From Pedobacter nanyangensis (GTDB lineage: Bacteria > Bacteroidota > Bacteroidia > Sphingobacteriales > Sphingobacteriaceae), in the NCBI RefSeq assembly GCF_003313505.1, contig NZ_QMHO01000002.1, positions 129,976 to 193,975 of the forward strand: DNA of 64,000 nucleotides, given 5' to 3'. Shown piece by piece: positions 5,953 through 11,664 of the stretch. How positions within the stretch are numbered: the stretch's first letter is position 1; each line of letters begins with the position of its first letter. Below the pieces are notes generated by a model, which was given only the letters and a program-made list of their open reading frames with translations, ran no database searches and had not been told where the DNA came from. A program made the position numbers and the translations under genes.

Positions 5953-6732
5953 TTACCAGTTAATTTTTTCCTTTGCCAGAAAAGCCGAAATACCTTTTTT
6001 AAAGTCACCACTCTCCCTAGTTTTGGCATTTGTTTTTACCGCTTCGTTCAAGCAACTATCAAGCCAAGTATTGCTGGTATAATTAATAAGTTGCTTGGTA
6101 AGCATCAACGAATTCCCTGAAGCGTTATTGCACAAATTTAAGGTAAAATTATTTACCGTTAGAGCAATTTCTTCGGCTTTTGTTACATAGGTAATCAAAT
6201 TATAGTGGAGCGCTTCTTGTGCACCAAATAACTCGCCGCTGAGCAGCAATTTTTTAGCAATGGTTTCACCAACTTTTTGTACCAAATAACAGCTCACAAT
6301 AGCCGGTACAAAACCCAGCTTAACTTCTGTATAGCCAAATTTAGCTTCTGGCACTGCAAAAACAATGTCACAAATGGTTGCTAAGCCACAGCCGCCAGCA
6401 ATGGCATGGCCTTCCACTTGTGCAACAACTACTTTTGGAAGCGTTCTGATCATTTCGAAAAGCTCTTTGAGTGCTGTAGAATCCCGGATGTTTTCCTCAT
6501 ACGAAAAATGTTGCAGCTGTTGCATATAAGCCAGATCGGCGCCTGCACTAAAAACCTCTCCACGAGCTTTAAGTACAACAACTTTGGCATTTTCATCTTC
6601 TTGTGCCTTTTTAAAAGCGGTTTTTAGTGCTTCAACCAAATCAGGGTTTAGCGCATTTCTTTTTTCAGGCCTGTTGATGGTGATTTCAGCTACCCTGTTG
6701 TTAACTTGGTATAATACCAATGAATTTTCCAT
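5953..6732 (-). CDS. Enoyl-CoA hydratase/isomerase (crotonase) family protein
   Basis: 259 residues, normal for the crotonase fold. The CoA/oxyanion-hole segments are present: FSAGADLAYMQ near residue 61 and GHAIAGGCGLATICD near residue 108. The catalytic-Glu region reads FGYTEVKLGFVPA. The set resembles methylglutaconyl-CoA hydratase-type members (leucine catabolism), but beta-oxidation hydratase activity is equally possible. It starts 5 bases after the comEC stop codon, in the minus-strand run. No other acyl-CoA gene is next to it, so the pathway is not fixed by context. Confidence 0.85.
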   Translation of the reverse strand: MENSLVLYQVNNRVAEITINRPEKRNALNPDLVEALKTAFKKAQEDENAKVVVLKARGEVFSAGADLAYMQQLQHFSYEENIRDSTALKELFEMIRTLPKVVVAQVEGHAIAGGCGLATICDIVFAVPEAKFGYTEVKLGFVPAIVSCYLVQKVGETIAKKLLLSGELFGAQEALHYNLITYVTKAEEIALTVNNFTLNLCNNASGNSLMLTKQLINYTSNTWLDSCLNEAVKTNAKTRESGDFKKGISAFLAKEKINW

Positions 6733-6737
6733 AAGAT

Positions 6738-8825
6738 TTATTTTTGGTTCAGCACTATTGCTGTATGTTTTTTAAGGACATGGATGGGCAAATTTAATAG
6801 ATTAGCTTGATGCTCAAACGTCGAAATCACATAATCTTTGTTGCTGGCATCAACAATTAATGTCTTAAAGTTAATTTCCTTCTGTAAGGTTTCTATTTTT
6901 TGTTTGGTATTTTGATGAATCCAAATGAAATCAAAACGGGGTGTTTTCATTATTTTTCGATGGTTAAATGACTTGTCCAAAAGTAAAATACGTATCTGTT
7001 TGCTGATGATTTGATGATCTTGTTTGATGAAATTTGGTGCCGTAAAATCTTCATCCCATTTCACAAACTTAATGGCTTGGATATGTTTTTGGTCTAAGGC
7101 AGGTTTTACGAAAAACTCAAAATTTCTATCCGCTTTGGTCAAATCGGTAACCAATATGCAATGGTTGCTCGTGATAAAAGCTGCTGCGTAATTTTTCCTT
7201 AAACTGAAAAAAATGATTTCCGACTGTTTGGTTGCGTTTATTTTTTGAAAGCTTAACGAACTTTGCAGAACCAGCCAAATGGAAAATCCAAGAAATAAGT
7301 AGTTCTTTTTATAAGTAGAAAAACCCAAGCTCAAAAACGCAATTAACATAAATAGCAGGATGAGTTGCCATCGGTTGAGCCAAATTCCGGTAATTCCCGC
7401 AAAAGGTAGTTCCGAAATCCATTTTAGGCCACTATTGGTAAAGTTAATGAGCCATTCGAAAGCTGGAGCAATAAAGTAAATCCGTAACAGCAATAAGGCA
7501 ATGCCGCTATACATTAGCAAAGTGATGGGAACAAGGATGAAAAGGTTACTAATGATAAAATATATTGGAAACTGGTGGAAATAATAGATGCTTAAGGGGA
7601 GGGTAGCCAGCTGCGCTGCCAAACTCATAGCCGTGGCTGACCATAAGCTATCGGCCCATTTGGGCTTAAAGTAAAACCAGTTGTAAATTTTGGGCTGGAA
7701 ATAGATTAAACCAAATACCGCCAAAAATGATAATTGAAACCCAACGTCCCAAACCAAAAATGGATTGAATGCCAAAAGCGCAAACGCCGTAAAAGCCAAC
7801 ACATTGTAGCTGTTATTTCCTCTCTTTAGTTGTTTAGTAAGGATAAAAATGGTGATCATCATGGCCGAACGTAATATCGACGGAGAAAACCCTGTAAGTA
7901 GGGAGTAATACCAAATCAACCCGATGATAACCAGGTTTTTAAATATTTGACCCAGCTTTCTACTGTTTAAAAAAGATAGGCACCAGTTGAGCATCAGGTA
8001 AATGAGGCCAACGTGCATGCCTGAAACGGAAAGTGCATGTACGGTACCTGTTTTACTGTAGGCGGCCAAGGTTTCTTTGCTCAAATCAGCACGGTAGCCC
8101 AAAATTAAAGTTGCTGCCACAGCGAAAGCCTCATCATTGTGGATCAATTTTCGGTAAACATTTACCAGTTTTTTCCTGAGTGTTAGGGCATATTTATGAA
8201 TGCTATTCCCTTGGTCCTGATTAAGTTTTATAAGCTGCTCCTGATTAATAAAACTTTGATGGTAAATGTTTTTGGCTGCTAGCCATTGCCTAAAATCAAA
8301 CTCAGCAGGATTGTACGCCGGTTCAACGGGAAGTTGGTTGGCAGGCAACATCAACTCGTGGCCATAACCTAGCTGGATAGGATTTAAACTATCTAATTTG
8401 AGTGCAACAAGCAATTTTCCGGTACAATGTGAGGCTTTTTTGTTCAGGTACCCTTCAGTAACCGATAGCTCGAACCTTAAAATTTGATTGTTTTGCTGAG
8501 GCTCGTTGCTGATCCAGCCTTTTAAATGGGTATGTTGCTTATTGCCAAAATAACCTGGATCTAAAAAATCGGTGTGGGCTAACGTGAGGTAAAAACCTAG
8601 GCAAAAAAATAATAAATAATAAAGGCTGGCAATTGTTTTTTTAAATTGCCAGCCTTTAATTTTCTGATAATAAATGTTAGCGGATATCGAAAAGAAAATG
8701 AAAGCTATGAGCACGTAAAAGAGTACTCTAAATAAGAATGGATCTTGGAAGTGGTAGCCTAGTATCATTCCCAGGCTAAAAGGAAATAATAGTTTAACAA
8801 ATACTATTTCCGATTTAAATATCAA
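6738..8825 (-). CDS. comEC: ComEC/Rec2-family competence membrane protein
   Basis: 695 residues, polytopic. An N-terminal membrane/DUF4131-type region (1-210) precedes the Competence domain, with the diagnostic LSVSGMHVG motif near residues 264-272. ComEC forms the inner-membrane channel for single-stranded DNA during transformation. The C-terminal ~170 residues are soluble and lie where other ComEC proteins carry a metallo-beta-lactamase domain, but no HxHxDH motif is present. Short ComEC forms of this kind are common in Bacteroidota (general knowledge). It begins 6 bases after the stop of the HHH/barrel gene, so coupling of the two is likely. Confidence 0.9.
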   Translation of the reverse strand: MIFKSEIVFVKLLFPFSLGMILGYHFQDPFLFRVLFYVLIAFIFFSISANIYYQKIKGWQFKKTIASLYYLLFFCLGFYLTLAHTDFLDPGYFGNKQHTHLKGWISNEPQQNNQILRFELSVTEGYLNKKASHCTGKLLVALKLDSLNPIQLGYGHELMLPANQLPVEPAYNPAEFDFRQWLAAKNIYHQSFINQEQLIKLNQDQGNSIHKYALTLRKKLVNVYRKLIHNDEAFAVAATLILGYRADLSKETLAAYSKTGTVHALSVSGMHVGLIYLMLNWCLSFLNSRKLGQIFKNLVIIGLIWYYSLLTGFSPSILRSAMMITIFILTKQLKRGNNSYNVLAFTAFALLAFNPFLVWDVGFQLSFLAVFGLIYFQPKIYNWFYFKPKWADSLWSATAMSLAAQLATLPLSIYYFHQFPIYFIISNLFILVPITLLMYSGIALLLLRIYFIAPAFEWLINFTNSGLKWISELPFAGITGIWLNRWQLILLFMLIAFLSLGFSTYKKNYLFLGFSIWLVLQSSLSFQKINATKQSEIIFFSLRKNYAAAFITSNHCILVTDLTKADRNFEFFVKPALDQKHIQAIKFVKWDEDFTAPNFIKQDHQIISKQIRILLLDKSFNHRKIMKTPRFDFIWIHQNTKQKIETLQKEINFKTLIVDASNKDYVISTFEHQANLLNLPIHVLKKHTAIVLNQK

Positions 8826-8831
8826 CGCATC

Positions 8832-10871
8832 TTAAAATTGATAACGCAACTGTATTCTCATTTCCGATTTCATTTTGCCATTTATTTCGTCCAATCCAGA
8901 GCCAACGGTTTCTACATTGTCGTAGTTGTAAAGGGCGTATCTTCCCCATAGGTCAACACGTTTGGCTAGCCTGTATTTTAAGTTGGCGTAACCCCTTAAA
9001 CCTTTTCCGTTGTACAAGCCAAAAGTAAAGTTGTAAAGCACATCGTCCTCATAAGCATAAATTCTACTGTCGTAGGAGGCTGTGTTGAAATAAGCTACCC
9101 TAATGTTTCCAGATAGCCTGGATGAAAGCGGGGCGTAGCTCACATCCTGATAAGCCAAATAGCCAAATTCAGCTTTGGCGTCACCTTTTTTAAACTGTAC
9201 CACTTCTACACGGTTTTGAAAACCAAATGATTTGCCTGCGGCCCATTTTACTTCAGCACGGTAGTTTTCTCTTTTAACCTCGTCCAAATAGTTGAAAGGT
9301 ACGGTTAAGCTCGTATTTTGTTGTTTTACTTCGGTTTTGTACCGCAAAATAGCCCTAAATGTTTTGGTAGGCGAGTAGGTTACCTGACCTAAAAACTCGT
9401 AACCATCAGAAGGGGCATCAACCCTGAAACGCAGCCAGGGGAATTTAAAATAATCGCCATAAACCTGGATGCTCCAAATTTTGGATGGGTTGATGTTCAG
9501 GCCCGCATAAAAGCCCTTTTCATTGAAAGCTTCGCTGGCCTCGGCCGTAGCCTGATTGAAAAAGTTATGGTAGTTTTTTTGATAGTTTCTGTGCAAAACT
9601 ACTGCCGAAACCGTTGAGGACAAACTTACTAAAGCGCCATTTACGTAAGCCAATCCTGCATCTAGTGATTTGCCAAATTCACCAAAAAAATAAAAGTTCT
9701 TGTAAGTATAGCTATAGTGGGCTCCCAAATTGGTCAATTCTTTTCCAGTAAAATTATGGATGCGATAAAGGCCACTTCCGGGTATAAAAGCTCTGTTGAA
9801 AGATGTGTGATAGGCTACTGCTCCAACATTTAAGGCGCTGGTTCTATATTGCAGTACACCGCCATAAACGGTTTGCTCTAAATTGTTTTTGTTGTCGATT
9901 TCAGATTGCGTACGGTGTAAGCCTGTTTCATTGATGGTGGATACGACATTTTGGCCATTTACAACAGACATAGAAGCATCTAGTTTGCGGTGCGATACAA
10001 ACGGCGAAAAATCGATGTTCTTGGCAATATTTACCGTTATTGCGGCACCACGTAGAAAGGCAAACTCATTGGCCGAAGTATAAGGTCGTAAACCTACATC
10101 GCGTTTGGCCACCCCTGTGATATCTGGTGATTTGCCAAATGCAAAACCCGACCATAAGGTAAGCGCCTGGCCAAATTGCATGGTATAATCGCCCAATACA
10201 ATCTTTTTGAACCTGCCCGTGTTAAGGAAGGCAATATGTCCAGACAGAAAATCAAATGGTTTTTGCTTGGGTCCGTTAAAGAAATATTCTCCAGCATCCT
10301 TTTCAAATACCAACGAAGCCGAAACTCTGTTGGAATAGGTATAACGATATCTGAATAAATACCGATCTGGCGTGCCCAAATACCTGCTGCCGGGTAGGTC
10401 GGTATAACCTTTCGATTTTTCAATAACCCGGCCATACCTCAAAATCAGATCGTTGTTCCCGTACATGAGCAGGTTTTTGCCCGTAATTTTATCTGTCGTG
10501 GCCGACTGTTCTAAGGTTACAAAAGGCAACAAGCGCTGAATAGTTTGTATGTCAAACTCAGGGATGCTTTGCAGTTCGAGCAAATCAATAAGCTTTCCGT
10601 TTTTTCTGATGTGCTCAAATAAGTTGCTGATTTGTAGCGGAGACAGGAAAACCAGCGTTTTCAGTTCTTCAGCATTAGTGTTGTTAAGGTTTATAGGGTG
10701 CTTGCGGAAATAGGTAAGACGGTCCTGCAATTCCGAGAGGTCATAATCCTCTGGAAGGTTTTCGGCAATGCTTTCAATCAAATCCTTGATCAGTTGGTCT
10801 TCCTGGGTTTGTGCCTTTGCCGCAAAACCAATCAGTAAAAAGGTAAATAATACCAATAGTTTAAAACGCAT
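8832..10871 (-). CDS. Outer-membrane beta-barrel protein with ComEA-like helix-hairpin-helix region
   Basis: 679 residues from the ATG at 10871. The open frame extends to 10928, but only the internal start gives an immediate signal peptide (LLVLFTFLLIGFAAKAQ), and it leaves a short 11-base overlap with the upstream gene. Residues ~60-120 follow the ComEA pattern (INLN..., EEL..., RKNG..., ELQSIP..., LLPFV). The two hairpin loops lack the usual Gly-x-Gly and read LSPLQ and PEFDI. The remaining ~550 residues are alternating aromatic/polar strands typical of a large outer-membrane barrel, ending in MRIQLRYQF with a C-terminal Phe. Placed between a PorV/PorQ-like barrel and ComEC, it may take part in DNA passage; this is inference. 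Confidence 0.8.
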   Translation of the reverse strand: MRFKLLVLFTFLLIGFAAKAQTQEDQLIKDLIESIAENLPEDYDLSELQDRLTYFRKHPINLNNTNAEELKTLVFLSPLQISNLFEHIRKNGKLIDLLELQSIPEFDIQTIQRLLPFVTLEQSATTDKITGKNLLMYGNNDLILRYGRVIEKSKGYTDLPGSRYLGTPDRYLFRYRYTYSNRVSASLVFEKDAGEYFFNGPKQKPFDFLSGHIAFLNTGRFKKIVLGDYTMQFGQALTLWSGFAFGKSPDITGVAKRDVGLRPYTSANEFAFLRGAAITVNIAKNIDFSPFVSHRKLDASMSVVNGQNVVSTINETGLHRTQSEIDNKNNLEQTVYGGVLQYRTSALNVGAVAYHTSFNRAFIPGSGLYRIHNFTGKELTNLGAHYSYTYKNFYFFGEFGKSLDAGLAYVNGALVSLSSTVSAVVLHRNYQKNYHNFFNQATAEASEAFNEKGFYAGLNINPSKIWSIQVYGDYFKFPWLRFRVDAPSDGYEFLGQVTYSPTKTFRAILRYKTEVKQQNTSLTVPFNYLDEVKRENYRAEVKWAAGKSFGFQNRVEVVQFKKGDAKAEFGYLAYQDVSYAPLSSRLSGNIRVAYFNTASYDSRIYAYEDDVLYNFTFGLYNGKGLRGYANLKYRLAKRVDLWGRYALYNYDNVETVGSGLDEINGKMKSEMRIQLRYQF

Positions 10872-11664
10872 ACGACAAGCCAATTTGAGGGGTGTAACCA
10901 ATTTGAGGATGGCTTTGAACCGCCACATCCAATATTAATTTTTGGTAATTTAATCCAATGCCAACATATTGTTTAAACGGTTTGGCACTAATGCCACCAC
11001 GTAGGCTCAATATTTCATGAAATCGATAGTCTGCGCCCACACTAACATCAAATTTTTGGTCAAAATCCTTAGACACGGTTGTGGCCACAATTACTTTGTT
11101 AGAAGGCGTATAGGTAGCCCCAAAATGTAGCGCTGTAGGGATGTGGGCGGCAATATTGCTTGATTTGTAGGTTTGCGACGAGGGGTTGCTTGCATATAGC
11201 CCCAACCCAATTTGTTTGCTCAGTACGTAATTTACGCCGGCATCAACCGAGAAAGTAGTGGCATCGCCATAATTGGTAATTTTAAGTTGGTGCAGGTTAA
11301 CTTTAATCCCTATAGAAAGTTGTTCCCCAAATTTCTTGGCCAGGCCCAAGCCTGCTTTAATCTCATTATACTCGCTAATGCCGTATCGGTTAACGCTCAG
11401 TCCAGCAAAATTGCCGTTAAATGGCAGTACAAAAGCAAAATTTTGTTCGCTCAGTTCATCTCCAAATAAATAACGGGCATAATTTGCCGCTGCCGTAGGC
11501 GATTGTAGCCCGGTAATACCCGCCGGATTGGCGTTTAAGCTCCAGATATCATACAAGGCAGCACTGGCATTGCCCATGGCCGTTAAACGAGCGCCTTGGT
11601 TGTATTGCGACCAAGATTTATTAACGCTCAGAAAAATAATAATAAATAGTAAAAATTTGCGCAT
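10861..11664 (-). CDS. PorV/PorQ-like outer-membrane beta-barrel protein
   Basis: 267 residues with a signal peptide (first ~19 residues, ending in NKSWSQ). It opens with the ARLTAMGNASAALYD...NPAG pattern shared by PorV/PorQ/UPF0164-type barrels and continues as short amphipathic strands to a C-terminal Phe (IGLSYAF), a BAM-recognition-like end. It is shorter than PorV itself (about 390 residues), so a direct type IX secretion role is not shown. Its 3' end overlaps the start of the HHH/barrel gene by 11 bases, which suggests translational coupling. Confidence 0.75.
   Translation of the reverse strand: MRKFLLFIIIFLSVNKSWSQYNQGARLTAMGNASAALYDIWSLNANPAGITGLQSPTAAANYARYLFGDELSEQNFAFVLPFNGNFAGLSVNRYGISEYNEIKAGLGLAKKFGEQLSIGIKVNLHQLKITNYGDATTFSVDAGVNYVLSKQIGLGLYASNPSSQTYKSSNIAAHIPTALHFGATYTPSNKVIVATTVSKDFDQKFDVSVGADYRFHEILSLRGGISAKPFKQYVGIGLNYQKLILDVAVQSHPQIGYTPQIGLSYAF

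Follow-up and report, generated by a model that had tools for sequence, protein, structure and literature searches.

A three-gene unit in Pedobacter nanyangensis was analysed within a window of 64,000 nucleotides, the whole stretch of DNA under study, which covers positions 129,976 to 193,975 of contig NZ_QMHO01000002.1 in a genome of 4.74 Mb. The unit lies on the minus strand and encodes, in order of transcription, a PorV-like outer-membrane protein of 267 aa with a FadL fold (10861..11664), a 679-aa protein referred to here as HHHb (8832..10871), and ComEC (6738..8825; 695 aa). HHHb consists of a signal sequence, a helical arm of the helix-hairpin-helix (HHH) type that reaches to about residue 137, and a wide β-barrel (about residues 138–679). 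We propose, at roughly even confidence, that HHHb and its PorV-like neighbour provide the outer-membrane step of ComEC-dependent DNA uptake in many Bacteroidota. This reading is favoured because it explains together the operon, the joint loss of HHHb and ComEC, the size of the barrel, and the complementary distribution of HHHb and a second barrel family.

The genes of the unit are tightly packed, as the initial annotation had claimed. The likely ATG of HHHb is at 10871 and the PorV-like gene ends at 10861, giving an overlap of 11 bases, and the end of HHHb at 8832 is separated by 6 bases from a possible TTG start for ComEC at 8825. Where ComEC starts is uncertain: no in-frame ATG occurs before codon 20, counting from this TTG. 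Judged by their spacing, the three genes may be transcribed as one unit. Promoter and terminator scans of the region gave counts near the shuffle level (20 versus 16.7 and 9 versus 6.8 in shuffled sequence).

HHHb was found in 38 of 41 genomes, including the window's own. Within the genus, all 23 HHHb-bearing genomes (again including the window's own) have ComEC directly after HHHb, and a single-sequence search detected the PorV-like gene in 9 of the 23, with 2 others cut by contig ends. Among 80 named loci, in which the closest HHHb is that of Pedobacter chitinilyticus (95 percent identity), ComEC follows HHHb within 1.5 kb in 64, the PorV-like gene precedes HHHb in 58, and all three genes are present in 43. 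Conservation of the three-gene order in relatives, named as a test by the initial annotation, is therefore upheld by 43 of 80 named loci, and the tie that it had drawn between the barrel and ComEC stands as regards operon structure and joint loss, but not as regards fusion into a DNA-binding pore. In two Daejeonella loci and one metagenome-assembled locus, AlaS, MerR, and sulfatase genes flank the core on the opposite sides and in reversed orientation, with the core itself kept; these flanks were not found in the Sphingobacterium loci, where the HHHb–ComEC core is also kept. The PorV-like gene precedes HHHb in all 15 class-level genomes from other families (1.8 kb away in one) and is present in 9 of 19 loci, each about 8 kb long, drawn more widely from the phylum. 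HHHb itself is phylum-wide, and only its linkage to ComEC is lineage-specific, belonging to one family; the pore had been put forward as lineage-specific, which is not what its spread across the phylum indicates.

Gene loss was tabulated in a family sample of 251 genomes, comprising 250 drawn at at least 90 percent completeness and the window's own. Without the 56 genomes of g28, which are treated separately, 195 remained; G002 and G020 lie outside the sample. Names for these groups were inferred from gene content and named loci: g28 is probably Mucilaginibacter, f1 Sphingobacteriaceae, f19 Weeksellaceae, and f20 Flavobacteriaceae. HHHb was scored as absent with an E value above 1e-30 or no match, and the corresponding limit for dprA was 1e-10. 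In g25, four genomes have E values near 1e-35 and were counted as HHHb-positive because G070 shows the operon; G212, G219, G222, and G010 were also counted as positive although their HHHb looks broken. G061, with ComEC on a 3.1-kb contig of a fragmented assembly, was counted as HHHb-negative, and its gene may be unassembled.

ComEC is absent from 7 of the 195 genomes, and HHHb is absent from the same 7 as well as from G005 and G061. The gene dprA, which in the window's genome lies on another contig than the unit, is missing in three of the seven ComEC-less genomes (G066, G236, and G280). HHHb is lacking in 7 of 7 ComEC-less genomes versus 2 of 188 ComEC-bearing genomes (one-sided Fisher value 2e-11), and absence of dprA is associated with absence of HHHb (one-sided Fisher value 7e-4); owing to the relatedness of the genomes, these values are not probabilities of independent events. 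Outside the sample, G002 is without HHHb and ComEC and has a dprA split with a stop, and in G010 all three genes contain stops or frame breaks. Neighbouring genes such as ComEC and HHHb are easily deleted jointly; what argues for a shared pathway is the loss of dprA, seen in few genomes. Stops within or at the edge of HHHb matches were also flagged in G213, G264, and G185, and stops inside ComEC matches in G281 and G171. In G005, from the same genus as the window, HHHb is gone (L146:1714-6590); the PorV-like gene and ComEC, the latter as a frame of 564 aa, are retained, and a second DprA-like gene (G005:C34:154339-154962) is located between the two.

The AlphaFold2 model of HHHb, built with 51 sequences, has a mean predicted local distance difference test score (pLDDT) of 85.1 and a predicted template modelling score of 0.82. 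It contains helices to residue 137 followed by about 24–26 strands, counted by eye, to the C-terminus. The best Foldseek match is chain B of the Mtr complex (6r2q_B, E = 3.5e-12), which we take to be MtrB, and the best VIA-align match is the usher FimD (Z 13.7, 365 residues aligned, 5.3 Å). These matches were read as a size class and not as descent, because other ushers, receptors, and porins score within less than 2 Z units of FimD. Ushers (FimD/PapC) and MtrB, the closest folds, are like HHHb single-chain wide barrels, with 24 and 26 strands; they share only 7–12 percent identity with it and carry other cargo, so that the likeness is one of size only. A sequence search of the PDB with HHHb returned nothing above noise, SprA included, and a Pfam scan gave no secretin domain match at E values up to 10. 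The net charge of the HHHb barrel has a median of +3.2 per 100 residues (n = 51), compared with +2.0 for 44 PorV-like proteins, +1.3 for 28 barrels of the Riemerella type described below, and −1.6 for 5 other receptors; as these form a weak control, the positive charge fits DNA uptake and proves nothing.

The PorV-like protein (P0002) scores 54.6 bits against the PorV/PorQ family model of NCBIfam (NF033709; E = 1.2e-14), below the cut-off of 90, and 18.3 of 250 bits against the PorV equivalog of the type IX secretion system (T9SS; NF033710), far under the cut-off. Its AlphaFold2 model (pLDDT 91.7) aligns by VIA-align with FadL over 247 residues at 1.9 Å (Z 32.9), and the protein has, as modelled, a FadL fold. 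Chain F of type IX secretion complexes, presumably PorV, is matched with Z scores of 29.9 and 30.6, the latter for 8gl6 (255 residues aligned, 2.4 Å), and chains of Bacteroidota β-barrel assembly machinery (BAM) complexes are matched at Z 26.1–27.6. In both the T9SS and the Bacteroidota BAM structures a FadL-fold protein accompanies a large machine. By analogy, HHHb and its PorV-like neighbour may pair up in the same way.

The second gene had been described as joining a ComEA-like region to a barrel. An HHH fold and a barrel are both present, but this does not make HHHb a ComEA. The HHH_3-like stretch of HHHb (P0001), residues 57–119 (10515..10703, minus strand), is matched in Pfam with an E value of 1.2e-4, under the curated cut-off; the same domain is matched at E values up to 0.01 in 43 of 51 family members, and the corresponding helices of the model lie between residues 46 and 117. 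Gly-x-Gly hairpins of ComEA contact the DNA backbone. With the hairpin register set by eye against the usual ComEA pattern, all 51 proteins have F, L, or M at position 75 and S, N, T, D, or P at position 77 of hairpin 1 (mostly F-L-S). For hairpin 2, 36 of the 51 have G at position 105, and every one has D, N, S, or T at position 107 (mostly G-F-D; E-F-D in the window's own HHHb). The caution in the initial annotation that both hairpins lack Gly-x-Gly thus extends to every aligned relative. The net charge of region 57–119 ranges from −7 to +1, being negative in 44 of 51 proteins, and E99 and Q101 of a Glu-Leu-Gln motif are invariant in the alignment.

A separate ComEA-like protein is encoded on another contig of the same genome. 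It has three HHH_3 matches (62.6, 60.7, and 38.4 bits), and one of these shows a KGIG hairpin; a membrane segment was recognized by eye at its N-terminus, and its 303-residue open frame has a net charge of +19. A fused ComEA-pore, as had been suggested, was rejected, because this separate basic protein exists and the HHHb arm is mostly acidic and has lost the DNA-binding signature. HHHb is therefore like ComEA in its HHH fold, but differs in its hairpins, in its charge, and in being joined to a barrel. According to a Riemerella study, RS02645, a protein with three HHH domains, is essential for transformation (PMC8459023). PGN_0421 of Porphyromonas gingivalis could not be assigned to either the separate ComEA or HHHb, although its ComEA-domain E value of 6e-21 fits the separate ComEA better.

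Across a phylum sample of 296 genomes, HHHb (E below 1e-30) is present in 214; 44 genomes have no HHHb match, 24 of these having been identified by subtraction. HHHb is missing from all 6 f19 and all 31 f20 genomes. In these two families, an adjacent pair consisting of a barrel frame of 909–975 aa and a DUF5689 protein, located through DUF5689, was found in 10 of 10 loci. According to PMC8459023, the Riemerella barrel RS04915 is essential for transformation and forms an adjacent pair with RS04920, transformation also requires ComEC, DprA, ComF, and a separate three-HHH protein, and homologues of RS04915 were found by the authors only in Flavobacteriaceae. By domain content and adjacency, compared with the published description, the f19/f20 pair fits the RS04915 and RS04920 families. 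Like the unit in the window, it combines an outer-membrane barrel with a paired exported protein in the same phylum; unlike HHHb, these barrels are about 870–980 aa long and are partnered by DUF5689.

The Riemerella-type barrel was scored as present with a profile E value below 1e-160, and G496, where it is in two pieces with stops, was counted as present. It occurs in 48 phylum genomes: 41 of the 82 without HHHb and 7 of the 214 with HHHb (two-sided Fisher value 3e-20, inflated by relatedness). By family, it is present in 6 of 6 f19, 30 of 31 f20, and 6 of 11 f18 genomes. Within f18, 5 genomes have HHHb only, 5 the Riemerella-type barrel only, and 1 has both (two-sided Fisher value 0.015). 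These distributions are suggestive of two barrels that are largely, but not strictly, complementary. The presence of relatives outside f19 and f20 differs from the restriction to Flavobacteriaceae given in PMC8459023.

Taken together, these data are compatible with the following scheme for uptake, which would serve natural transformation or the use of DNA as food. We infer that HHHb is the pore, that it contacts the PorV-like protein, and that DNA is its cargo. The barrel, with about 24–26 strands, would by analogy with ushers and MtrB be wide enough for double-stranded DNA once a plug or gate opens, and the FadL-fold partner, where present, would sit beside it as PorV sits beside SprA. Since the HHH fold is kept and the DNA-binding signature lost, gripping DNA is a less likely role for the periplasmic arm than docking on a partner or gating the pore. 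A basic protein anchored in the inner membrane, the separate three-HHH ComEA-like protein, would then take up DNA in the periplasm and hand it to ComEC. The outer-membrane crossing of DNA in competence systems with a type IV pilus is the task of the secretin PilQ, and the same step is proposed for HHHb, a single-chain barrel without a secretin model match. A broader version, held tentatively and with less confidence than the core proposal, is that HHHb is a general Bacteroidota DNA-import pore that does the work of PilQ without a type IV pilus, has a FadL-fold partner in many lineages, and is replaced by the Riemerella-type pair in the Flavobacteriaceae- and Weeksellaceae-like families.

Several observations weigh against DNA uptake as the function of HHHb, in addition to the relatedness that affects the Fisher values and the absence of Gly-x-Gly from the arm in 51 of 51 relatives. 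A single deletion can take out ComEC and HHHb together, since they adjoin each other in the family. Four of the seven ComEC-less genomes have an intact dprA (G045, G067, G069, and G191), and 2 of the 5 dprA-less genomes outside g28 keep HHHb (G014 and G157, both fragmented assemblies). In G212, G219, and G222 (3–4 HHHb matches with weaker E values) and in Pedobacter fastidiosus (L083), a full ComEC match goes with an HHHb that looks broken. None of the 56 g28 genomes has HHHb, yet ComEC is found in 55 and dprA in 55; four ComEC loci of this group (L142–L145) have no PorV-like gene, and the three g28 genomes in the phylum sample are also without the Riemerella-type barrel. Outside the family, linkage of HHHb to ComEC was seen in 0 of the 15 class-level genomes (on another contig in 14, 44 kb apart in 1), in none of the 19 wider phylum loci, and in 0 of 12 named loci with at least 9.9 kb downstream, these 12 being among the 16 named loci without ComEC. 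The PorV-like gene is missing from 18 of the 80 named loci with room for it, and 4 are cut. In the phylum sample, ComEC is missing from 8 genomes. Seven of these are also without HHHb, but they all belong to family f52; dprA is full-length-like in two of the seven (G489 and G543) and weak or absent in the others. A strict one-for-one exchange of HHHb for the Riemerella-type barrel was rejected, because 7 genomes have both barrels (in f21, f23, and f26, both are present in 6 of 8) and 34 have ComEC and neither; 14 of these 34 have HHHb matches of 1e-11 to 1e-27 and possibly carry a diverged HHHb.

The strongest competing explanation is that HHHb and the PorV-like protein form a general outer-membrane assembly or secretion module, similar to SprA–PorV or BAM, that came to stand in front of comEC in one family but has a different function. 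We consider this rather unlikely, though it keeps appreciable weight because of g28, which retains ComEC and dprA without HHHb, and because linkage is missing outside the family while HHHb is phylum-wide. T9SS and BAM structures offer precedents for a FadL-fold partner of a big machine, and the unit is reminiscent of SprA–PorV in that a FadL-fold protein close to the PorV chain is encoded beside a very wide barrel. HHHb differs, however, in having 679 aa, an HHH arm, and no SprA match in the PDB sequence search, and P0002 falls far below the PorV cut-off. A general module also leaves aside that HHHb is lost together with ComEC and in part with dprA, that it is partially complementary to a barrel family needed for transformation elsewhere, and that the HHHb–ComEC core persists where the flanks differ.

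Import of DNA as a nutrient or phosphorus source, and not for transformation, would use the same genes (ComEC, the ComEA-like protein, and the barrel). The four genomes that keep dprA without ComEC and HHHb (G045, G067, G069, and G191) would agree with it, as they separate uptake from recombination, whereas dprA is absent or broken along with ComEC and HHHb in G066, G236, G280, and G002, and this explanation appears quite improbable. A g28 genome, G229, is likewise without ComEC and has dprA reduced to a fragment, but it belongs to a group with HHHb in 0 of 56. Least probable of all, and very much so, is an export function in which HHHb would pass a polymer or folded subunits in the manner of an usher, its link to comEC being co-regulation only: the closest folds of HHHb are indeed an export usher and the barrel of the Mtr complex, but a shared barrel size shows no function, and the joint loss with ComEC would be left unexplained. 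Outside the family, the genes around HHHb could still include a recurrent export partner.

For the passage of DNA across the outer membrane of Bacteroidota, a Riemerella screen proposes one barrel (PMC8459023). A study of P. gingivalis found ComEA and ComEC essential there and states that most of the uptake machinery has yet to be identified (PMC11532111). The literature search, which left subscription journals mostly outside its coverage, found no naming of the HHHb protein in titles or the openings of abstracts; in PMC10434189, a table lists BT3167 simply as 'helix-hairpin-helix'. Because HHHb is found across the phylum, and has both its operon and its losses in common with ComEC, it makes the outer-membrane question directly testable through one gene.

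ComEC of the unit contains DUF4131 (E = 3.9e-22) and the Competence domain (PF03772; E = 4.1e-59, 200.6 bits against a cut-off of 23) in Pfam, and its C-terminal part gave no metallo-β-lactamase match at E values up to 10. A C-terminal metallo-β-lactamase-like domain is present in many ComECs; it is a variable feature, and membership of the family stands without it. Beyond the class, the open frame of ComEC is frequently longer, at about 800 aa. Five bases 3′ of ComEC lies an enoyl-CoA hydratase-like gene (5953..6732, minus strand), named by eye from its sequence, which also adjoins ComEC in many Pedobacter loci and is probably not part of the unit's function.

Some further candidates and arrangements were noted in the searches for Riemerella-type genes. 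The ComEC neighbours in f19 and f20 proved wrong as candidates: the ten scanned were two POT-family transporters and otherwise known enzymes or proteases. Two DUF5689 matches in the window's genome were rejected as a Riemerella-type pair, the adjoining frames, of large and medium size, being related to those of G140 and G016, of which one set, when scanned, was SusC/SusD-like. The best match of the Riemerella-type (A4) profile in the same genome has an E value of 1.1e-26. Two f19 barrels that were scanned contain a carboxypeptidase-regulatory domain, and that of G369 has none. In G325 (L184:1698-6818), the place of the usual partner after the Riemerella-type barrel is taken by a PLD-like/DUF5689 protein bearing a type IX sorting tail, a possible sign that this barrel family is put to another use there. 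Split frames were also seen in two named Pedobacter loci: HHHb occupies two adjacent frames in P. fastidiosus (L083:9998-12028) and ComEC two frames in Pedobacter sp. Leaf216 (L088:12012-13498), in each case through possible decay or sequencing error.

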